A program made the translations under genes and the position numbers. A stretch of 64,000 nucleotides of DNA from Chrysophaeum taylorii (Eukaryota > Sar > Pelagophyceae > Pelagomonadales > Pelagomonadaceae), in contig JAQMWT010000029.1 in assembly GCA_029834535.1 (NCBI GenBank), forward strand, positions 62,001 to 126,000. The letters run 5' to 3'. Under the pieces are notes generated by a model. It ran no database searches, was not told where the DNA came from, and worked only from the letters and a program-made list of their open reading frames with translations. Shown here in pieces: positions 3,580 to 17,025 of the stretch (within the stretch, counting starts at the first letter, position 1; each line of letters opens with the position of its first letter).

Positions 3580-5233
3580 TCATCGTTTTCGATGGAAAGA
3601 TGTCTATTTGACGACTGTGCAAGCTGTGAGTCCAGAGTAGTGTCGCTAAGCGTAGTCACTCAGGCAGCTGGTTAGTTTTGGTGCTCTCAAGGAGCTTGTT
3701 AAGTGCATTGCCATGGAATGTACGAGTGGACGTACCCAAAATATTCCATAACATGTGTGCAAGAGTACAGGTTAGCCAATTACACACACATCAACATTGA
3801 CATGACAATACGATACTATGAACAGGTGCACACAAGGTTACACGATCACGTGTGCAAAATATGTTATATACAGCCCAATGGTAATGGCGTTATATTCACA
3901 AGCGTGTTTACGTGGCGAGGCTGAACCGGCGCGGTAACAGTCCAAAACCCATAGGTTACGTGCACGTTTTAACACATGGTTTCTCAGGGACCCGCCTGGG
4001 CCCATAACCTGCAGAGCATTTAGCAAGCAGTGGTAAGTCACCTGGGAAACCATCCCGTCTCATCATGAACGTCTGGCAGTATTTAATTCGGGGAATGAAA
4101 AGGTATGTTCCCTATATCCTCAGAACACGACAGGCGGCATCTAGAACTACACGAGAAAGGTAAAGTGTATAGTGCTACATACCTCGGGACGCGCTAGACC
4201 ATGATGATGAGCTTAAGCACAAATCAGAGGACTATTTGATTGTGTAGAAAGGAAGAAGAAGGGTAAGGAGGAGATCACGCTCTAAACGGACGGATAAGGG
4301 TAAGAGGCAGCAGATTTCTCTGCAGGATCATTATAGCACGGAAGATGAAAAGACTGTCGACTATTTCGGATTAACGCTGTCCCGTGCAACGACAGACTAC
4401 ACATGACACAAATCAAAAGAAAGAAAGGACGCGGTACATCAAAACAATGCGAGGCATGTTGATCTGACGCAAGGTGGTCCTCGATGATTTTAATGATTTT
4501 GTCCGTTTTAAGCTCATCTTCGGTGCAAATGGCGAGTACAAGGGGTGTACCCGGCGTATTGGTTTTATTATAACATTTTGTACACGCCACGTGTACTTTG
4601 ACAACGCCTTTAATGGGTGGGTATCGATGAAATCGAATACCCTCGTTTGTCGGTATGTTAGGCGCGTTCCGGATGCGCTTCGCCTTTAGACACAACAATG
4701 AGCTCAAGAATTGGAGGTTGTCAGCGCAGTTAGCTTGTTGTGCCTCCGTAAGCAGTTGTTGGATGGATTGATGCCAACATTGAGGATCCTCAGGTGGTGG
4801 TAGTAAAAAATTCGGTGGCTGGGTGCCAAGCGAAGGGATATTCCCTGACATCATCGCCATAGCATCGAATTTACAATGCCTGAGCAAAAAATACTCTGTG
4901 TTTGCTACGTGCGATTTAGGAGTCACTGGCGAGGACTGATTTCCTTGAGCAACGAGAGGTAAGTTTGATGCTTCCGATTAGGAGAACTGGTTGGAGCAAC
5001 GCCTGGATTTAGTGCATTAAAAGGAGAGGATAATGATGACATGCCACCACGCCCACGGTTCAGTACAGAGTAACGTCGGCTCGCAGCATCCTTGTTCTTG
5101 GCCGGGTTCATTTTATAAAGGTCCTCACATCGGGAGTTTCACATTTTGGCGAGCCACGATGCCGCAGTATATGAGGGTTAGTTTAACGTAATTTCGGACG
5201 TAGTGAAGGGTAAGGGTTAAGTGTCTTGCTGAG
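3580..5233 (-). other. Spacer between retrotransposon copies A and B: probable LTR/leader plus an extra unknown ORF region
   Basis: This stretch lies between the RNase H end of copy A and the Gag start of copy B, both on the minus strand. It should therefore hold the 3' LTR of A, the 5' LTR and leader of B, or one LTR shared by both. No second copy of the sequence is present in the window, so LTR borders cannot be fixed. Between about 5111 and 4282 two overlapping minus-strand reading frames encode a protein-like sequence rich in Pro, His and Cys, including a CTKCYNK motif. I do not recognise it. It could be an accessory ORF of the element. Bases 3600-4280 show no convincing gene. Confidence 0.4.
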
Positions 5234-5522: not shown

Positions 5523-5805
5523 CTAACTAACTAACTAACTTCAGACCTCTCCCGAGCATGGGAGCCAGGCCGGACCGACAGGAGCCAGTCCGGAATCACG
5601 GGCCTGTAGACGAGGAGCGCCGAAAGGTCGGTCGGCGGAGAGTGACCATCAAGCTTGTCGCCATGCGACGAGGAGACCGCGATGTGACTGACAACCAACT
5701 CGTCGATAACCTTCCGTCTTCGCCCCCCGGCCATACCCCGTCCCACTGCGAACGTTCCGGCTGCCAACCGGCCCGCCCGGGAGGCGAATAGGTGCCAACC
5801 TACGC
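5523..5805 (-). mobile_element. SINE-like retroposon with (AGTT)n tail and 14-bp target duplication
   Basis: A 283-bp GC-rich insert interrupts the RNase H region of retrotransposon copy A. It is flanked by identical 14-bp copies of catgagcatcataa at 5509-5522 and 5806-5819, a classic target-site duplication. Read on the minus strand it begins ggcgtaggttgg and ends in five AGTT units. A diverged relative lies at about 50,880-51,187 with the same head and an agttagtt tail. The insert has no coding capacity of its own. Short size, a simple-repeat tail and a long target duplication indicate LINE-mobilised retroposition. I do not see a convincing tRNA-type A/B box pair, so the origin of the head is open. 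The perfect duplication suggests a young insertion, later than that of copy A. Confidence 0.82.
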
Positions 5806-8800
5806 CATGAGCATCATAATCTAATAACAAATCTTTCCCTGGAGGTTGGCAAAGATAGTAGTATGGGTTTATAGCGAATGCCATTTCCGTTAATAATTTG
5901 CGTAACCAGACCACATCATCGGCACACGTATTAAGGGCGATGAGTTCACTCTCGTGCGTAGAAGTAGCTGTAATAGGCTGTAGTTTGGAGTTCCAAGTGA
6001 TGAGAGAACCGAACAAAAAGATGGCGTAGCCAGTTGTAGACTTGCGGTCTTGTTCATAAGAGGGTGCGTTATCAGCATCGACGAACGCGACCAGTGGATC
6101 AAAGTTACCTGTATTTACTTGTTCTTTAGTGTAATCCAACATGGTAACCATATCAGTACGATTGCCGATGAGAAGTCTAAGGTGGTCCATTAGAGCGGAA
6201 GAGCCAGAGTAGTACCATAGTCGAAGATTGCGATTTTCGGGCTTGCGCAAATAGCGGAGCTCCTGTTAACACTTGAACATGCAGAAATGCTGGATTATAC
6301 ATTCCTCGGGAACAACGACTAAGGCTTTGTGATAAATCAGGGCGACATGCCAACTGTACGAAAGTGAGCTTGCCAAGTAGGGTGGAGAAGGTGTGTAGAA
6401 TGAACTTGTCCATATCAGAAGATGGCTCTCCAGTTTTATAGGTGGCTGATGGTGACATCGGTGCAGAGGTAGGACGTAACTGCATTAGAATGGGGTCCTC
6501 TTCAAACAATGCATCAAGTTTAGCTTGACAGTCAAGTGAGATGGAACCATCAGTAGTACGCGTTATGCGCATGCCTAAGAGAGTATGAACTTCTTCAAAG
6601 GTGTCGACTGAGTATTCCTTTTTCATGGCTTGCTGGAATTCACGACGTAGAGTTTCCGAGGTGCACGTGATCACAACATCCTCCACTGAAAGCGTGCAAA
6701 ATAAAAACGTAGCGTCAGCTTGGACTTTAGCGTAGATGCATGTATCTGTTCGAAAGCGTGTATAGCCTAATGAGTCAAAGAAACCATTCATGGTTTGATT
6801 CCAAAGGGCAGGACTCTGTCGTGATCCATAAAGGGATTTAAGTAGTTTTGGGAGACGACGTCCTTGATATTTTGTATCTTCAGGATCGAGTAGGTAAATA
6901 CCTTGTGGCAATTTAACATGGACATGAGAATCTATGGGAGCTTGAACAAAAGCGTTAGGTACATCGACGTGGTAGAATGGAAGTCGTAGATGAGCTGCTA
7001 GCGCCAGAACACAACGGATGCCAGTAAGCTGTGCCATAGGACTAAATGTGTTGAAAAAGTCGGTGCCCAGAGAAGCTAAGAATCCTCGTAGAACCAGGCG
7101 CGCTTTGTGTTCGATGTATTCACCTGCGGCATTGCTTTTTATACGTAATACGAGGCGGGTATCAATAGGCTTTGAGTTGACCATGGGCAACGCGAGTTTA
7201 AAGCTGCCAAACTTAACAATATCAAAAATCTCTTTAGAGATAAGCTTTACGATCAGCGTCTGCGAGACCTTTGAGGCAGGTCAACTCATATTCATCAATC
7301 TTGATATCTTTGGCTTGAATTTTATATTCGTCCGGACCAACAGTGCTGGGGTCTTGAGCCTTGGTAAGATGGGTGATTGCGTAAGAAGCGACCTTATCGT
7401 TAGTGTGAGCGTAAGCTGGATCTTCGACAAGTTGAACGACTAGTAGAGGATCATCTCCAAAGTGGGCCTCAATGTAATGAGATTGCACGGTGATGTAGTC
7501 TTCGATGGCGGAGAGGTGAGGCTCGGAGGCACCATAAGAAGCATCATTATGATCCAAAATGGAATGGGGTGTGAGCAAAGCATAAGCATATTGAGCGGGA
7601 GGAACTTGAAAAGCTTGAGAGTGTTCAGAAATAAGATGAACGAGAGCACGAGGAAGGTGAAAGTCTGAAAGGCTGAAGTCGTCGAAGAGATGAAGAGGAG
7701 TGGCTTCCGTCGATGGATGGCTAAGGCTCCTATGACACATAGCGGAAGAAGATTGGGAAAGCCCTTAGCGAACATGATGATGAACGGATGGTGTAAATTC
7801 CCCCTCTGGAGGTATAGCCGTCCAGTGGATGCCATGAGCAACATGAAGGGAGTGGAGGGTGGGGTCGCAGAAAGTGATATACTGCGTGGAGAGGTCATAC
7901 TTGAAGTCAGCAAGTGTACCACCAGCTTGTTTATAAGCGGCAACAGTTGGCGAAGCAATACGAGTAAGAACAGCCTTGAGATTAGTCTTGCGACGAGGTT
8001 GAGGGTGATGAGGACCACGGGTGAGACGAAGGACATCCTGGGAATAGAGAGACCGATAAGACGGTAAAAGGGGCAAAGTGTTGGAAGACACGTCAGATGT
8101 AGGTGTGGTGACAGAAGCAGCGGGTGCAGAAGCGGCTGGAGCACTTGCGGGAACGGGAGAAGGAGCATGGGCAAGAGAAGAAGGAGTCCCCCTCTCGTGT
8201 TCAATGTCGGTGGACATAGCATTCCCCCTCTGCGCCGCATCATTGGGGGTGCTGTGAACAGAGAAGGGGATATCGGGTGAGGGTGCGGGTGGTGGATGTT
8301 GTTCATAATCGGGAAGTGGTTTAGAAATAAGATGAGGAATGGTTAGTTTAGAGGAAACACGGACTTGGCCGTTCTCAGGATTAAGGAAAACATCAGCTAA
8401 ATGGTTGACAATGGGTGTTATTAACGGGTTTATAACATTAGCACCACATAAGTAGATGTAAGGACGACATCGAGGTTCATATTTATGAAATTCATTTGGT
8501 TCCAAATGCAAGTAACAAACAGAGCCAAAAGGTTTGAGGTAATCTTGTTGGGGAACATTACATTGATCCAACAAAACTTGTTGGGGTCTTAGGACTTTAT
8601 TGTAAATACGTTCGAGGGAAACGTTAGGAAGGAGATTATACGATTGGACAGCATGTATAACAGCCCACGGGTAGTGTGGTGCCGGATCTGTTAGGGGTTG
8701 ACCTTTATAGGATACATTAAGCACGTGCCGGAGTCGTGTAGACGCGGCAGTTGCTATCTGACCAACAGCGGCTTCTACTTCATGATTAAAAACATGTAAG

Positions 8801-10131
8801 TACGGGGGGAAAGCAGACATATTAATACCGTGTTCAACACGAAAGGGAGTAGTAACATGTTGAGATAAGTAAGGTTTAAAAGAATCACAATAAATTTGTT
8901 TTAATTGTACATGAACATAAGTAGAGCAAAAGTTGCGAACAAACTCGAGGGCATTACAAAATTCGCTAGAATTGGTGGTACGACAAAAGTACACTAACAA
9001 AAATTTAGAAATGAGACACTTAAAGACAATGATATGGCGAAAGGATCCCCATTCCGAGAGGACAGATACGTAACCACCATCACATGCCCAGGCTTCACCA
9101 GGTTGAAAAACTTTTTCGAATGATGGTTGCTTGGTAAGATGATGTGGATGAGGAAAGCGTTTTTTATGTAACGTACAATCCACACAGAACTTACGGTAGG
9201 GTACATCAGAGGGATGATGTCCCGGACTGGCAATAACCTGAACAGCTTTTATAGCCTGGGAATCACTAGAGTGATGTATATTGCGAAAATTGGTAGCACG
9301 TCGCTGAGAATCTCGAAACGCGAGGGTGCATCTGGCATGAACTTTTCTGTCAAAGGGCGCATGTTTCTCATGTAACTGTCTTGGAGTTATGAGAGGAATA
9401 TGTTTCGCTTTTGTAGGAGATGATATATCTGCGGATGAAGTGTTAGAGAGGAAGACGTGAGCCACTGAATCGAGATGAAATAGTGGAAGTTCGTGGTTAG
9501 AAGCGAGATTATCACAACATGGAAAGATTTTATTAGAGATGTATAACATTGTAATGGAACTCTGGTGTAATATTAAGGATGTGTCAGTAGGAAAGATGTT
9601 TGTGAAAAAGGTTGACCTGTAGTTTTTGGTTAGAGAAGCGTGATCGGGATCAAAGGATGGTGATAACGTTAATTTACGCAAGTCATAGACAATCTGACAC
9701 AAATGTTTATAGATTACATGATAGGTTCCAGCCGGAATAGCATTAGCGATTATGTCACAGCATAGGTCCGGGGACAAAGACAGAAGAAAATTAATTTGGT
9801 ACGCTGTGAAATTATTGGCGCGTGCCAATTCGCGAGTTGAGTAATGTCGAATGCGATCGAGCCGTGGATCGTAAAGGATCATGTTAGCAAACCCACGAAT
9901 AGTAGGAGTTGGGGTATATATAGAATGAACTTTGGCGCCCATCTTCTATCACTGGATGTGATGAAGCCAAGGTATCTGCTTTGAGACAGATGCATGTCAC
10001 TTAAAGCAAAAATTTTTCCGATGAACTCGAGACGATTTTCCTGAGGGTAAAAAATGAAAGAACCGTGAAGCACAGTTGAAGTGTAGGAAACCAATGTTTG
10101 TACTAGACGACGCGTGTCTTGATTTTCATTA

Positions 10132-11334
10132 TTATGGTGATAGGCTTGGCATAACCAAAGAAAACCAGTAACAGGAGTAAGAGAGGTTTCCTGTATCATG
10201 TGTTTGGAAGATGTAGGTTTCGCCAAATGCATTTATGTGTGCCTGGTATTTAGAAGAAGAGTTAGAAACTATGATGTCTCCACCTGTGTGTCTTCCACCA
10301 GTGATGTAAATGATGGAGGAAGTAGAAGATTTATTTAAGAATAACCTGTGAGGTGGTTGGTTAGATTCTATAGTTGTAATACGAAAGGACACAGGTAATG
10401 TGGTAGATTTTGGGAACAAGCGTCCCATAATATTATAGAGGAGCACAAAAGCCTTGAGTTCAATGGGAGAGCTCATACAAGAGAGGGGCTTTCTTGAATT
10501 CGTTAAGAATCCTACGCGAAAGTTAGAAATGCCCTCCATTTCATCTTGACTTGGATGTTCGACTGTTTTGTTTGAGTGCAGACGAAGAAACAACATGGTT
10601 AAAGTTTCGAGCTCAGTAACTGTTAAGCGAACAGATCCTGTGCGACTGAAGTTGCTGCAAGTTTTGGGTATGGACACAAATGGCATGTCAGAGAAAACCT
10701 GCGTCCAAGGTTCGTCGACAATTAACTTGCGACTGATGGAGTTAGCGTGATCTGCAATGTCCAGGAAGGAAGTGACTCGTTTATTAGGCCAGGAGAGCAA
10801 ATCCAGATGACCGGTATTATATTTGCGAGCAACAAGAATCCATCTTTCTCTGGCTTGATAATCTCCACACAAGTAGCATGGAAATCGATCACATATATCC
10901 ACCGTATAGTGCATCGTAGAGAAGATGAGATTAGCAACTCGTATATGATCTTCATACGATGCGGAGTGTGGTGGCGTCATCTCCATGAAAAGAATGAGGG
11001 GCTTTAAAAGCTCAAGTACACTTAGAGCACTTGGAAACAAGGAGTCGTCCATATCACGCTCGAAAGTTGAAATGGATCTCCCGTTGATTATGTTGCGATT
11101 GGTGCATGGAGATGTCAGTTCCACTATATCAGTATAATATCTTGCACGTTCAGTGTCCGATGCTCGATGTAGATATGTGAGAAACTTGGGTAGTGATGGG
11201 AAAACTTCGATGGAATTATCAAAACGTCTTCGTAGCATGTGCGTGAGATTTTCGTCGCTCTCAACAAGAACTTTAACGATGATGTTGATTTGCGAGTCAT
11301 TGGAAGCGCAAGCCAAGAAGGCAGGAGTGGACAT
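10132..11334 (-). CDS. C5 cytosine DNA methyltransferase domain carried by retrotransposon copy A (fossil)
   Basis: This is a reading frame of about 400 residues. It has the landmarks of C5 DNA methyltransferases in order: a motif I-like start (STPAFLACAS), a motif IV-like SPCTNRN containing the catalytic Pro-Cys, a motif VI-like EMTPPHS, and a motif VIII-like QARERWILVA. It sits between the Gag-protease remnant and the integrase. The family transfers methyl from S-adenosylmethionine to cytosine. Capture of such enzymes by copia and gypsy elements is known from dinoflagellates and charophyte algae. The equivalent region of copy B lies at 1-700, so the domain belongs to the element and is not a chance insertion. 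Whether the product is active cannot be judged. Methyltransferase identity is by motif recognition only. Confidence 0.68.
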   Translation of the reverse strand: MSTPAFLACASNDSQINIIVKVLVESDENLTHMLRRRFDNSIEVFPSLPKFLTYLHRASDTERARYYTDIVELTSPCTNRNIINGRSISTFERDMDDSLFPSALSVLELLKPLILFMEMTPPHSASYEDHIRVANLIFSTMHYTVDICDRFPCYLCGDYQARERWILVARKYNTGHLDLLSWPNKRVTSFLDIADHANSISRKLIVDEPWTQVFSDMPFVSIPKTCSNFSRTGSVRLTVTELETLTMLFLRLHSNKTVEHPSQDEMEGISNFRVGFLTNSRKPLSCMSSPIELKAFVLLYNIMGRLFPKSTTLPVSFRITTIESNQPPHRLFLNKSSTSSIIYITGGRHTGGDIIVSNSSSKYQAHINAFGETYIFQTHDTGNLSYSCYWFSLVMPSLSP

Positions 11335-11619
11335 CCCGGAACAAAGTAGAGTTACAGTAGGTGTTCGTGAACTTGGAGACGTAGTTACCGTATGAAGTAG
11401 GCGTGTAGTAACCTTGCGTCATACAGGAGGTGACAAATGCTTGCGTATGTAAGGCAACTGCGAATGCATTGACTCCAAGATGGTTTTGAGCCACGGGACG
11501 TAAATTGCACGTTCCAGAAGGTTGGAGTATAGCTCAAGCATTTCGAGTTGTTCGTTAAAAGCACTTAGTCTGAACTGTAAGGAGCGAAGTGAATTCCGCG
11601 AGTGCTGTTTTTACAGCGA

Positions 11620-14600
11620 CAGATAGCGCTGTTGGAATCAACGTGAATTACTTCGAGTGATCGGATCCGGACGTGTTTCGAGATTCTTGATCGATATTTG
11701 ATACAGTATGGAGATAAACGCAGACGTGCGTGAGGAAGAATCTCCTCCAGTTCTTCCCGCCGCCCCTGAGATAGGCCGCGAGGAAGGTGAATTGAGAGAG
11801 GCCGAGGCAGTCGACGTTGCTGACGTGCCCCCTGATGTGCCTCCGGATACTGCCATTTTTTCGCCGTTGAGTCCAACGACTCCGGACCGTGGCGAGCGAG
11901 TTACTATTGAGCGCGGATCTGCAGCCCGAAGTCGACTTCGTGAAGACCTCGAGCAGAGACGTCGCGAAAATGAACGATTAGCTGAGCGTTTTGCCAGCAA
12001 GATGCGGATAAACCGTCTGGGAATACGGATCCGCTGATCTTACGAGATCCTTTTTTTGTGGGGCAAGAAGACGTGCAAGCACTGTGGGTTCTTCTGGACC
12101 ACCCATGATGAAGATGAACACGGAAGTCGCGTAGTCTGCAACCGCGATCCGGATCGTTGCTACTGTGCGATGTGGAAGCGAATTCGTAAGCAGAAGAAGC
12201 ACCCCATATCGCGGTCCGATTGGGCGAGGCGTGATGATGCATCTCATGCGAACGCCACGCACGGATCGGAGCCTTCTAATGAAATTCAAACGGCCCTCAC
12301 CGATCTTGGAACCACAATGGCGACCATGGTGAGCGAGGTCAGAGGCATCAAGGACACTACGTCGTTTTCTACACGACAACGAGACGGACGATCACCTTCT
12401 AGACGATCGTCACGCCGACATCGAAGCCAGAGCCCTGATCGAAAAGCCCATACTGCTCAAAGTAGCCCGAGTCCTTGCCGTCACCGGAGCTCTAGTCGCA
12501 ATTCGCTCCGGCGCCGACGTCATCGACATTACGATGACGAGTATGACGGAGGCAGATATCAGGAAAGTTCGGGACATTCGAGCGCAACTTTCGCGTTCCA
12601 ATCTTTATGCGACGCGCCGCCAATGTCGGGGGTTGTCTTTTACCCGACGGCGCGCCCTGCCCGAGTCTCCGATGATGCTGCCGATGTCGCTGTGACGAGC
12701 AGCCATCGTTTGCAACAGGAGCAACATACCACCAACGCTCGGATCGTTCGGTGGCCTTCTACATCGTAGGTGGAAGCAATGTCAGATGCTACTTGGGATT
12801 CTCAGCACTACTGGGAAGACTCAGATTCGGAGACCGACGAACCCATGCCGCAGGTTCCAGTATCCCCCCATTCGTCAATGTACATGTCTTGCCGGGCAGT
12901 TCACGATGATGACGTTAGACCTTTTTAGTTGACGTCGGGGACGACGTCTTCTTTTCCTACGGGGCCCCCCGAGACCGTTTTAGCCGTTTTAGCCGATGTT
13001 CTAGCCGATATAGTTTTGGTCGCAGCAGAGCAGACCACAGCGGCGCCGATGGAGGAGAAGTTGACGGGAATGTCCGATTTGACGGACGAGAAACGACGAC
13101 TACCAGAAGAGATAAAGGAGGAGATATATGTGCCTCCGATTGAGAAGTGTCAGAATTTGTTGTCAGCGAAACTGGGGAGTGAAAAAGCAGCCGAAGCGGC
13201 GAGCGCCAATATAGATTCAGCGGCGAGATGTACAACGCCAGATATAGCAGCGGTGACGATGCAGATTCCGGGCGATGCGAAACCGGAGATACGATGTCAT
13301 CACACTGCACTGTCGCCGAGCGATGGGGAAAAGATCGAGCAAGACCTCATCACCATCGGTTGCCTGGACCCTGGTACCCTTACGTTTATAGTTGGTCATA
13401 TTTATAGACGACGAGACGGGCCGAAGTTTGCAACGACTTTAGGCGAGGATGGAATGGCTGATGTCTCTTATATTTGTCGTGGGATGGTTGAAAAACTGGA
13501 AAAGGATAGCATCATCCTTGACCGGGGCGATCTTCCAGTCGAGCGCACTTTGTATGGTTCAGGATTGAACAAAACGACTATCCACAAATGGGTTGCATTG
13601 CGGATTGCGCTTGCGGACGACGTAGCCGTTCCAGTTGTTGCTATTGTGGCCGATACTAATCATCTATTTTTGCTGGGAGCGCGCGATATTCGGGTGTTTG
13701 GAGCCATAGTGGACTACCCGCGGAATCGCATTGCGTTTCTACGCACACAAGTCGCTTACGGGCGCAAGAAGTTAAAGGTGCAGGATCGACGAGTAGATTC
13801 TCCGATTTTGACATTCAGAACAACTTATGACGAGAGCAATCCCGTGGTAGTTCAGGTTTATGGGCAACAGCACCATGCGATGCAACAAAGCCTGAGCACA
13901 GTGGCGAACCGAGTCTACGCTCGCTTGTGCAAGATTGAAGACCTCCAGCGTCCACCGCCGAAACGAGCGGGAGCTTCGACGACTTGGGGAGTTCCTCCTG
14001 TTACGCCTTCTCAAAGTTCGAACAGCGATGCTTATGAAGTGACAGCCTATGCTGCGCGCACGATGAAGGTCTAGCCTGGGCGCACCTACTGCGTGCTAGT
14101 CGCTCTTTCAGAGCCCATGGAAACTGGGCAGGTTTTCGTTGCTACGTCTTCTGGGTACGAGCAACTCGGGGTAGTCGATGGAATGTGTTCTTCTCCAGAG
14201 GATCATGATAAGTTCGCAGCTCGAGTGGCGATATCCTCTACCCAGGATGTGCCGACTGTGATCACTCAAGGTGAAGTCCTTGCTTTGGGCGATATTGTTC
14301 GTTTTGATGACGAGCTGAATGCTGAGACGGTCGACGATTTAACGAAGGATGGTGAAGCCGAATCTAACAAGGCTAACCTATCATTCACTGTTTCGGTCGC
14401 AAGCCATCTTACTCAAGGCAATGCGGCTCCCGAACTGATGCTTTTGAGCTCAGTGCAGAAGGCGTCTCCTTCTGCCGATAAGAAGAAGAATTCTCGTCAA
14501 GAATCGCTCGGTAACCACGATTTCGACAGACGAACTGACGAGGAGGAAAAGAAATGCCGAGAAGTTACAGAATGCGAGATTCGCCGAAGGTTTGAAAAGG

Positions 14601-15184
14601 TCCACTGGGTGCCGATCACGTATCGCAAGGTTGTGATGCTCTTCAGCGGCGCCGGAGGAAGTACTTTAGGACTGCAACGAGCGAACGAGTTGTGCGGGAC
14701 GTCGCTTCGAGTCGTCCTTGCTCTTGACTCGTCAACAGCTGCCAACAAGGTTTATCAGAAGAATTTTCCGAAGATACCTGTGGTCCAGCACACGCTCTGT
14801 GGACGATATGACTCGACCCTCCGGTTGATCAAGGCTTATTTGCCTGAAGCGGAATGGTCATCGTCGATGTGTATACCATCTCCGCCGTGCGTTCATTCAG
14901 CACTCTGCAACTTGACATCCAGAGATGTTGGCAAGGGTGTTACGGCCACTAACTGGACGATGAGGCTGTGCAAAAGGGCTGGCTTCATGATGAGGCCGAT
15001 TGAACAGGAGGCGTCCATTATTTCGTATATAGCGCGTTTACACCCTCACCAACATTCTTGCTATCATATACCATCTCTCCATCTTGTTGAGAGGCTTGGT
15101 GAGCGTGAGCAAGGTGTGTGGCGAGCATATCCGACCCCGCGTCCGTGTTTCCCCCGTTCAGTGAGGTCTAGGACGAGTCGGTGA
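11620..15184 (+). mobile_element. Second retroelement fragment C: Gag-like, aspartic protease and C5 methyltransferase (fossil)
   Basis: On the plus strand, opposite to A and B, the parts in order are: a Glu/Pro/Arg-rich Gag-like frame (11,708-12,037); a second frame (12,056-12,769) with a Cys-His cluster (CKHCGFFW onward) and an Arg/Ser-rich tail; a retropepsin-like frame (12,929-14,074, with NHLFLLGARDI as the LLG-D region); and a frame (14,093-15,184) whose second half is a C5 DNA methyltransferase. That domain shows motif I VVMLFSGAGGSTLGLQ and a motif IV-like PSPPC. Reverse transcriptase, integrase and LTRs are not present, so the 3' part is lost. Gypsy or DIRS-like affinity is possible but unproven. 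The fragment is broken, with several interruptions. Its methyltransferase does not look like a copy of the one in A. Confidence 0.68.
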
Positions 15185-16560
15185 GTACCCCCCTTGAGTC
15201 GGTGAGTACCCCCTTTGTCACCCGGGGGTCGGGAAGGTTTTTCTGTGCCGCCATACCACGTTTGAGCAGAGGTTGAAAAATTCAAAAATTGCAAGATACT
15301 ATAGAATGCCGCGAAGAACTCGTGGTGACGCCTCACAAAGTACAACAGATGGAAAGCGCCGAAGAAATGATGCCGACCCCCCAGGCATATCGCACACGTT
15401 GGTGTACGGCTACAATCCCGAGAAGACGTACTGGGTCCTCAAAGCCGAAAAAGAGCCCACCATCCGCATCCTTCTCGAACACGCCGGAATCTTCCTCGAA
15501 AAAACCAACATCCAGCCCATCTCCTAACCACCATCATCCCCCATCAATGCCCCTCTCGAACACAAACCTTCTTCCAACACCTTCGTAAAACCCTCATCGC
15601 ATTCATTACAACCCCCAGCATTTGCCCTACGTCACGTCATTCGCAACGCACTTATTAAACGAGCCCCCATCAACAGCCCCAGCGTTAGCCCTTCTTAATT
15701 TACTGCGTAAAGTGTCTCCTGTAACTTGTCCGGGGCAAAGCGGATTGCTACGCACATGCCGTGCCCGACGCGGACTCTACCCGCTAGCCCGTATTTACGC
15801 GCACTCGTGGCAGTCCCCGAGGGCCTCCACCTCGTCGATCTATCGACATATACCTACGGCGTGACCTGCCTCGCTGCTGCCTCGTTGCTGCGAGTCGAAT
15901 ATTAGGGGAAGGCTGGTCGATGTTACTATAATATTCAGGGGTGCGCAATGACCACTTTCGTTGTTCATCGGTGTTCACGTTGCGGCATAAGACGGTCGAT
16001 AAGGTGGGCGACTGCGGTGAGAGCGATATTTCCGACAGTTGTCCGCAGACGCAGACGCTCTCCGCGAGGCTCGGAGCGCTTGATCGATGCCGAGTCAGGT
16101 TGGTTGTGCTGAAGCATGCATAAAGCCGACCAACATGTGCATCGCGCTAATGTAGGGTCGATAACCTCGCGAGTTCCCGCAGTGAGTCCCCGCATATCGA
16201 TGCTCGCTGGGCCCATCGCCTCGGCGCCGGAGGGCATACCTTGCTCTCTATTGGGTGATTGGCTGAAACCAAGGCGGAAAGCAAAACTGCCACCAGTCGT
16301 ATCGACGGTCTCTGTGCCTCTAGGGGTCACGAAGGGTCTTGAGCACATGTTTGGTGGCCTCTGCGGCGCTAATACCAACCTTGAACACCTTCCGTCCCGG
16401 TCCAGTCTCTCAAGCTTGGGGAAACAAGGGAGAACGTCTCTCAACAGGGCTAGAGACAATGCAGACTATGTTGAATCTACCCATACCCTCTAGGTACGCA
16501 CCTGGAGGTCTACTCCTTGTTCGAAGTGAACTGCAGATCTAATTGTTCATAATCTGAGAG
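15185..16560. other. Mostly non-coding stretch after element C
   Basis: At 15,175-15,215 the phrase gtcggtgagtacccccttt-like is repeated twice in tandem. No protein family, tRNA or rRNA is visible. Short open frames exist on both strands, but their composition does not look coding. The region may be remnants of older transposons. Confidence 0.45.
15306..15527 (+). CDS. Hypothetical 73-residue protein (weak)
   Basis: A short open frame from ATG at 15,306 (MPRRTRGDAS) ends in TAA at 15,525-15,527. It is Arg/Lys-rich at the start, with the more ordinary segment GYNPEKTYWVLKAEKEPTIR after it. No domain is recognised. It stands alone in a gene-poor stretch and may be a chance frame or the relic of a larger gene. 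Confidence 0.2.
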   Translation: MPRRTRGDASQSTTDGKRRRNDADPPGISHTLVYGYNPEKTYWVLKAEKEPTIRILLEHAGIFLEKTNIQPIS

Positions 16561-17025
16561 TTATAATGGCGGAAGGGTAAGGAAGGAAAGAGGGAAAGCC
16601 GTATTGCGGAGAGAAAACCCTCTTGTGGAGATAGGTGTGAAAGGAGTGAGATGTTCCAGTGTCATACACATAATAGTGTAGCTCTCTGGAGGTGGACGAG
16701 GCTGGCAAGGGGAAAGTGAACCAGGACGAGACGACGAGCGACGCTCGATGGAGATAATCAACGAGAACCAGCAGGCGACCATATGTGGTTGCGGGGTTTC
16801 CTCTCGGGTTCTTTCCTTTTGCTCGGCGGCGAGTCCGGAAAGAAATCTCGAAAATCGCTTTTTTTCCCCTTTCGATAACCTCCCCGCCTTCCAGTGGAAC
16901 AAAAGTTTGTCACACTGCGCATCAAGCGCAGGGCCCGGACTTGGAGTTCGAGAGAAAGACAGACAGACAGACATGTCTGCGATCGATGTCGCATCAAACT
17001 CACCACCCAACGGGGGGGCAGACAT
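16561..17025 (-). CDS. Hypothetical 154-residue protein (weak)
   Basis: An open frame on the minus strand runs from ATG at 17,025 (MSAPPLGGEFDATS). It contains a Lys/Arg-rich helical segment (LSKGEKKRFSRFLSGLAAEQ) and then a Pro/Ser-rich tail. It lies just downstream of the FG-GAP gene 3' end on the same strand. No family is recognised. The tail composition suggests that only the first 100 residues might be real coding, possibly as one exon. Confidence 0.25.
   Translation of the reverse strand: MSAPPLGGEFDATSIADMSVCLSFSRTPSPGPALDAQCDKLLFHWKAGRLSKGEKKRFSRFLSGLAAEQKERTREETPQPHMVACWFSLIISIERRSSSRPGSLSPCQPRPPPESYTIMCMTLEHLTPFTPISTRGFSLRNTAFPLSFLTLPPL

Follow-up and report, generated by a model that had tools for sequence, protein, structure and literature searches.

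The window analysed here, a 64,000-nucleotide stretch of the Chrysophaeum taylorii genome (contig JAQMWT010000029.1, positions 62,001 to 126,000), contains a retroelement fragment (fragment C) lying head to head with an element of another type (copia A). Judged by its alignments, fragment C belongs, as a truncated and dead copy, to an abundant Ty3/gypsy family, and we consider it very probable (about 95%) that this family bears a cytosine-5 methyltransferase domain within its polyprotein and has carried it for a long time. That the domain has, besides this identity, a selected role in the methylation of nucleic acid is likely, with less assurance. Both statements are drawn from sequence comparisons.

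A methyltransferase domain in the polyprotein of a Ty3/gypsy family

The genome (70.8 Mb, 697 contigs, the window being G000:C29:62001-126000) was searched with the methyltransferase open reading frame (ORF) of fragment C, which gave at least 111 matches, its own included (111 of 1329 candidates scored). Counted by hand among the matches listed, 69 were 77-100% identical and constitute subfamily 1, to which fragment C belongs, and 42 were 68-71% identical (subfamily 2); the domain was free of stops in 86 of the 111. A query with reverse transcriptase (RT) and ribonuclease H (RNaseH) gave at least 110 matches, at 91-100% identity. The contig pairs C25/C521 and C10/C297 gave repeated matches at near-identical coordinates and are probably haplotigs; copy counts may therefore include some alleles. 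The fragment noticed in a preliminary description of the window is thus real.

In the long frames L009-L013 the order is Gag, a Cys/His motif, a protease-like stretch, the cytosine-5 methyltransferase, RT, RNaseH and integrase, the methyltransferase being placed between the protease region and RT. In the second ORF of L012, Pfam models matched RVT_1 (143-307), RT_RNaseH (402-514), Integrase_H2C2 (698-756) and rve (775-867). With RT-RNaseH upstream of integrase the family is Ty3/gypsy, which settles the choice between gypsy, DIRS and copia left in the preliminary description. Gag is identified by its place ahead of the other parts in the longer copies, and the Gag-like part claimed for fragment C is borne out in this way. 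The aspartic protease claimed there holds only in part: its position and D-G-M-A-D plus LLGxxDI, which we take to be an aspartic protease motif, speak for it, and no Pfam protease model matched fragment C or the longer copies of the family.

Direct long terminal repeats (LTRs) with TG..CA ends were seen in subfamily 2; a pair was not demonstrated in subfamily 1. The subfamily-2 copy at 520043-530330 of contig C5 (minus strand) is 10.3 kb long, has 336-bp LTRs that are 100% identical, with TGTGGCG..CGCCACA ends, and in a neighbouring copy (about 544101-554380) the LTRs are 98.2% alike over 341 aligned bp. As to target-site duplication, the flanks do not match within either of the two copies; AGGAG is found on both outer sides of the pair. 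The two copies have the same orientation and lie about 24 kb apart, as if recombination between copies had split one insertion site.

Methyltransferase and RT were in one frame in three of 12 copies (L009, L010 and L011). In eight of the 12, the frame that contains the 3' end of the domain closes before RT, 45-110 codons past DDLQD; among these, L012 closes only after a later indel (by eye) and the domain of L018 is itself frame-broken. In L016 the frame is shifted earlier. The frame break before RT may be either programmed or the result of decay. A C tract of 5-9 bases just past DDLQD, near the methyltransferase/RT junction, varies in length among 12 copies (L003-L005, L009-L013, L015-L018) and may help decide whether the two parts share a frame, by slippage or drift.

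For METHYLTRANSFERASE of the C family, the L013 domain alone scored 26.4 bits with PF00145 (cut-off 22), and the ORF of the window itself, which has the strong motif I of the preliminary description (MLFSGAGGSTLGLQ), scored 22.4 bits (E 9.5e-5). Of the 12 sequences in alignment A1, nine had a PF00145 match with an E-value of at most 1. The catalytic residues Cys116 (motif IV), Glu154 (motif VI) and Arg186 (motif VIII) were invariant in all 12 rows of A1, the motif names (IV, VI, VIII etc.) being those that we take to apply. A PDB search with the domain gave weak matches (best E 0.062 and 0.14).

Past the region of motif I, the L013 domain is identified through homologues. Among 5.8 billion proteins searched with L009, a single relative was returned (P0001); searching again with P0001 added P0002-P0004. 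These four metagenomic proteins are listed with PF00078, PF17917, PF17919 and PF17921, and P0001-P0003 also with PF00665; like the C family they have the order methyltransferase-RT-RNaseH-integrase, with the homologous domain at the same place. P0001 and L009 could be aligned from the methyltransferase through the integrase, with 479 of 1746 columns identical (27%). Unlike the C family, the four have ENV or ENT at motif VI and, in three of them, QxRxR at motif VIII (ENV and QGRNR in P0004, ENT and QKRAR in P0001 and P0002, ENT and QKRSQ in P0003). When four C-family domains were used in hmmsearch against 15 domains and 300 shuffled decoys, the hits were P0001-P0004 (E 4e-19 to 7e-14), with no other sequence below E 0.5. 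The C family and P0001-P0004 formed one group in the tree (support 100/99), whose long branches cannot place the domains among DNMT classes and whose copia and host branches are not trustworthy. Scans of IMG/VR with A1, A2 and P0001 yielded no relative.

Age of the capture, selection and possible role of the domain

RT-RNaseH and methyltransferase identities were 88-90% and 72-79%, respectively, among P0001-P0003, 60-61% and 36-37% between these and P0004, and 31-37% and 23-27% between P0001-P0004 and C. The two rank alike across the relatives, that is, both parts diverged in step, and one old capture followed by long co-inheritance is the simplest account. The capture probably took place long before the copies of this genome spread, because the place of the domain in Pol and its ancestry are common to metagenomic elements that are only 31-37% identical in RT-RNaseH. 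The gypsy lineage appears to have retained the domain while RT diverged to about one third identity. The preliminary description had proposed repeated capture in this lineage, or selection for the cargo; the former is not supported, given this shared place and ancestry, and the latter is supported by the dN/dS ratios of both families, 0.07-0.10 in that of copia A and those that follow for the C family.

Across subfamilies, dN of the domain was 0.115-0.130, dS 1.5-2.2 and dN/dS 0.057-0.085 in all 20 pairs (Nei-Gojobori; dS is near saturation and the ratios are rough), compared with 0.048 for RT and 0.15 for gag-protease (one pair each). In the one pair so divided, codons 120-179, which include motif VI, were the most constrained sixty (dN 0.036). 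These values indicate that the C methyltransferase is under purifying selection.

Several observations, besides the roughness of these ratios, weigh against reading the domain as a selected enzyme that methylates nucleic acid. PF00145 covers the L013 domain over motif I and just after only; with longer frames it scores 19.2 bits (L013) and 22 bits (L012). The full consensus ENV (motif VI) and QxRxR (motif VIII) is not found in the C family, which has IEQE and SxRxR or CxRxR. The NCBIfam dcm model gave 18.2 bits against a cut-off of 100.65, and the AlphaFold model of the domain was unusable (pLDDT, the predicted confidence score, 35.1). Within subfamily 2, dN/dS was 0.17-0.28 in 10 of 10 pairs. 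Finally, CpT was the context with the most frequent C-to-T differences between copies, followed by CpG; this held for the two gypsy subfamilies and for copia-1, the family of copia A. The rates at CG, CA, CC and CT were 0.015, 0.012, 0.014 and 0.021 in subfamily 1 (where each of the pairs L003/L017, L006/L013 and L007/L018 consists of overlapping parts of a single copy, so that every rate is lowered equally), 0.026, 0.020, 0.022 and 0.035 in subfamily 2, and 0.075, 0.062, 0.062 and 0.081 in copia-1. In a single pair of a further family, copia-2, CG was highest (0.034, on 1247 CG sites, versus 0.030 at CT).

The lack of a CpG-specific C-to-T excess argues against copies heavily methylated at CpG; the rates would be easier to reconcile with methylation that is light or short-lived, or with RNA as the substrate. 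The observed/expected CpG ratio was 1.15-1.32 for gypsy loci, 0.88-1.12 for copia-1 loci (flanks included) and 1.38 for the host part of the window, which differ in base composition too.

We suggest, tentatively and at somewhat less than even odds, that the likeliest role is the methylation of the element's own complementary DNA (cDNA). The conserved catalytic residues, the selection and the position of the domain are the grounds for this suggestion. Since in eight of 12 copies the frame at the 3' end of the domain closes before RT, the methyltransferase may be translated on that side of the frame break where Gag lies, and it may be packaged in particles. It would there methylate the new cDNA de novo, either as a disguise as host DNA or to influence chromatin where the element inserts; the mark could then be maintained by the host DNMT5. 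DNMT5 of Cryptococcus is known only as a maintenance enzyme. A bolder version, in which retroelements are the de novo methyltransferases of this genome and the host merely copies their marks, is improbable; it is based on the finding of one host gene of DNMT5 type and one of Dnmt2-like type, alongside three abundant LTR families (one gypsy and two copia), each with a different methyltransferase or methyltransferase-like domain under purifying selection. The search behind the host genes is blind to introns, and five of at least 57 matches in it were without a family; it may have missed a host de novo enzyme. If true, retroelements would write methylation and the host would copy it, reversing the usual relation of host silencing to transposons.

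Two other roles were considered, both unlikely and to a similar degree. Instead of cDNA, the domain might methylate RNA as Dnmt2 does, for example the tRNA primer or the genomic RNA inside the particles. The C-to-T rates would agree with such a substrate, but the resemblance to Dnmt2 is weak: the local matches are mainly to motif I, which is common to cytosine-5 enzymes, DNMT1 chains outrank DNMT2 in the PDB search, and in an hmmsearch from the host Dnmt2, C ranks below two shuffled decoys. Alternatively, the domain might be catalytically dead and retained for binding nucleic acid or for a structural function in the polyprotein, as the altered motifs VI and VIII of the C family would suggest, the more so as P0001-P0004 mostly retain the usual ones. 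Against this, A1 shows no variation at the catalytic Cys, Glu and Arg, and the stretch that includes motif VI is the most constrained. Methylation of new cDNA is retained here as the preferred, tentative role.

The relationship between the two elements leaves almost no room for other origins. As C and A share one locus and have cytosine-5-like motifs in both domains, they could be imagined as one recent family with a single captured methyltransferase. Their domains are, however, not detectably related in profile searches and do not group in the tree, which confirms the earlier statement that the methyltransferases of C and A differ and refutes a shared origin in recent times; at a remote level, all cytosine-5 enzymes may still descend from one ancestor. 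The methyltransferase of copy B would lie outside the window, ahead of its first position. Equally negligible is the probability that C is a host gene devoid of retroelement parts, since the family has at least 111 matches in the genome and copies with RT, RNaseH, integrase and LTRs; this candidate was rejected. Neither of the two outcomes named beforehand as refuting was thus observed, and the preliminary description stands as an observation and, in part, as an interpretation.

Fragment C and its junction with copia A

The coordinates of the features are given in Table 1. Homology of C to gypsy copies begins exactly at 11591 and extends to 15049, with 96.8% identity to L017 (blastn), and pieces of this interval matched L013-L018 at 83-98% identity. 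The plus-strand frames 11702-12037, 12038-12769, 12929-14074 and 14075-15184 share one phase and are separated by in-frame stops at 12035, 12767, 12926 and 14072. C lacks its 5' end, a portion of Gag and the methyltransferase beyond its N-terminal half; of RT, RNaseH and integrase, nothing was found in 11591-15256. The methyltransferase has retained the motif IV Cys and the motif VI Glu and is cut before motif VIII, the Arg of which is lost. C is considered dead because of these four stops, the truncated methyltransferase and the missing RT, RNaseH and integrase.

Compared with L013, L014, L016 and L018, about 1.15 kb of Gag is absent at 11993: L013 2485-2888 pairs with 11591-11994, and L013 picks up again at 4042. 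L017 (contig C246) is collinear with C and lacks the same stretch, so the deletion is not peculiar to C. Its occurrence in C and L017 and not in the four other copies suggests that a Gag-deleted form may have spread, or that one piece was duplicated. The sequence at 15057-15256 matches the region upstream of the coding part in L013, L014 and L016-L018 (in L017 from 15094) and is likely a remnant of the 3' LTR.

Table 1. Positions in the window of fragment C, copia A and their parts
Feature	Position	Strand	Evidence
Integrase, RT and RNaseH-like parts of copia A	5531..9945	-	PF07727 RVT_2 E 1.9e-37; rve and SH3_retrovirus below cut-offs; RNaseH by position
Methyltransferase-like domain of copia A	10132..11418	-	LLCSGMS, TSPC, MEMTPP, QARERW by eye
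Junction of copia A and gypsy C, both truncated there	11590..11591	.	Locus ends in matches
Fragment C, truncated dead Ty3/gypsy copy	11591..15256	+	blastn versus L013-L018
Start of Gag frame, up to internal deletion of about 1.15 kb	11708..11993	+	Gap versus L013; L017 collinear
Gag Cys/His motif CKHCGFFWTTHDEDEHGSRVVC, presumed zinc-binding-like	12074..12139	+	Translation, no model score; same Cys/His positions in L013, L011
Aspartic-protease-like stretch (EDGMADVSYI ... LLGARDI)	13380..13745	+	Position and presumed motif
Post-protease beta-barrel-like stretch, tentatively and presumably dUTPase-like	14060..14340	+	Rough alignment to pre-methyltransferase stretch of P0001-P0003
Cytosine-5 methyltransferase, N-terminal half	14630..15049	+	PF00145 22.4 bits; motifs placed with A1, an alignment of further copies
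Motif I	14630-14674	+	
Motif IV Cys codon	14888-14890	+	Codons counted by hand
Motif VI Glu codon	15002-15004	+	Codons counted by hand
Remnant taken as 3' LTR	15057..15256	+	Matches L013 1992-2171 and same region of L014, L016-L018

In copia A integrase precedes RT, which with the RVT_2 match places it in Ty1/copia. C, on the opposite strand, therefore abuts an unrelated retroelement, as had been proposed. All 14 copia loci listed at the junction end at 11590, and the five gypsy loci that reach it (L013, L014, L016, L017 and L018) all begin at 11591. The junction is an internal point of both elements, without LTR, and looks like a rearrangement junction of two truncated elements rather than a meaningful pairing. 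A plain insertion of C into A, or the reverse, was rejected on account of the missing LTR and of both elements being cut; C as a part of A was likewise rejected. A repeat of about 200 bp at 16493-16690 recurs, 80-85% alike, in L015, L018, L029, L032 and L033.

The domain of copia A had at least 99 matches in the genome. It is taken as methyltransferase-like from its motifs and weak scores in shuffle comparisons alone; no Pfam model matched it, either in the window ORF or in copy L030, a PDB search with alignment A2 gave matches at chance level, and the AlphaFold model of this second domain was unusable (pLDDT 30). In copia-1 an in-frame TGA (11419-11421, minus strand, context GTA TGA CRC AAG), 27 codons before SGxSTPAFLA, was present in 15 of 15 copies (the window and the L019-L033 range); the methyltransferase-integrase-RT part would consequently need stop readthrough.

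Host sequence rich in GC occupies 17500-64000 of the window; long frames there encode trehalase, PRP38, tyrosyl-tRNA synthetase and FKBP-TPR proteins.

Other methyltransferases of the genome and known systems

A genome search with PF00145 gave at least 57 matches (123 of 474 candidates scored). Among the 57 listed are a complete Dnmt2-like gene (L035) and a host gene of DNMT5 type (L036/L045), with SNF2 further along the same 2086-amino-acid frame. Of the remaining 55, 50 overlap copia-2 matches by coordinates (hand count) and five match no assigned family; no DNMT6 was identified among the matches. When A1 and A2 were compared as profiles with DNMT5 and Dnmt2 of the host, the probabilities were 0.3-20%. 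The rbcL gene on contig C697 had its nearest PDB matches in 7yk5 and 5mz2, which are red-type diatom enzymes; together with the DNMT5 gene this makes a stramenopile alga the likely host.

The copia-2 family had 128 matches in the genome, some of which are pieces of one copy. In L037 and L038, TLPCQHLS, IVENVPP and SKTRY were seen by eye between protease-like and integrase-like stretches, and the domain scored 36 bits with PF00145. Its dN/dS was 0.165-0.205 against three of three diverged copies, one of them broken. A protein search with this domain returned nothing at E 0.001 among 4778 candidates, and a PDB search no match.

DNMT5 is described in diatoms, pelagophytes, dictyochophytes, haptophytes and others, DNMT3 as missing from most stramenopiles except diatoms, and DNMT6 as widespread in stramenopiles (PMC9998398). 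DNMT-bearing retrotransposons were previously described from dinoflagellates and one charophyte, namely in LINE (long interspersed nuclear element) and DIRS elements of Symbiodinium and, as a Dnmt3, in a Gypsy element of Klebsormidium (PMC5890265). 'LTR Copia and DIRS' DNMT3 are mentioned in PMC12344493, which cites PMC5890265, where Gypsy is stated. According to the latter, retrotransposon DNMTs perform de novo CG methylation, the LINE enzyme tested did not, and cDNA methylation was proposed for DIRS. An antiviral role was suggested for such methylases (PMC6338049). In Ectocarpus, chromodomains or a Tudor domain are reported from some elements, and an N4/N6-type methyltransferase gene from a DNA transposon (PMC12477816). 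No cytosine-methyltransferase-bearing gypsy or copia element of a stramenopile was found among the literature matches listed, most subscription journals being outside the search.

Compared by description, KnitGypsy-Dnmt3 of the charophyte Klebsormidium nitens (PMC5890265) resembles the C family: it is a Gypsy LTR element in several copies, with a cytosine-5 methyltransferase inside the polyprotein that is under purifying selection (Ka/Ks < 0.2). It differs in being Dnmt3 by phylogeny and in having DIRS-like repeats, whereas in the C family simple LTRs were seen and the domain could be assigned to no DNMT class; the rbcL of the C host, in contrast to a charophyte, is of red type. SymbioLINE-Dnmt and SymbioDIRS-Dnmt3 of Symbiodinium (PMC5890265) are, like C, spread by retrotransposons, under purifying selection and of several kinds per genome, with hundreds of intronless copies; they are LINE and DIRS, not LTR elements, and Symbiodinium Copia elements are described there as devoid of DNMT, unlike the two copia families here, in which the domain was recognized by motifs (copia A) and by Pfam (copia-2).

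Several LTR families in one red-lineage algal genome thus appear to carry different methyltransferase cargo. Two of them are Ty1/copia; that copia elements share a genome with the gypsy family and bear similar cargo surprises more than the gypsy cargo itself. The parallel retention by unlike elements argues that the cargo is useful to the element, and the presence of DNMT5 in the host would make this usefulness testable with long-read methylation data.

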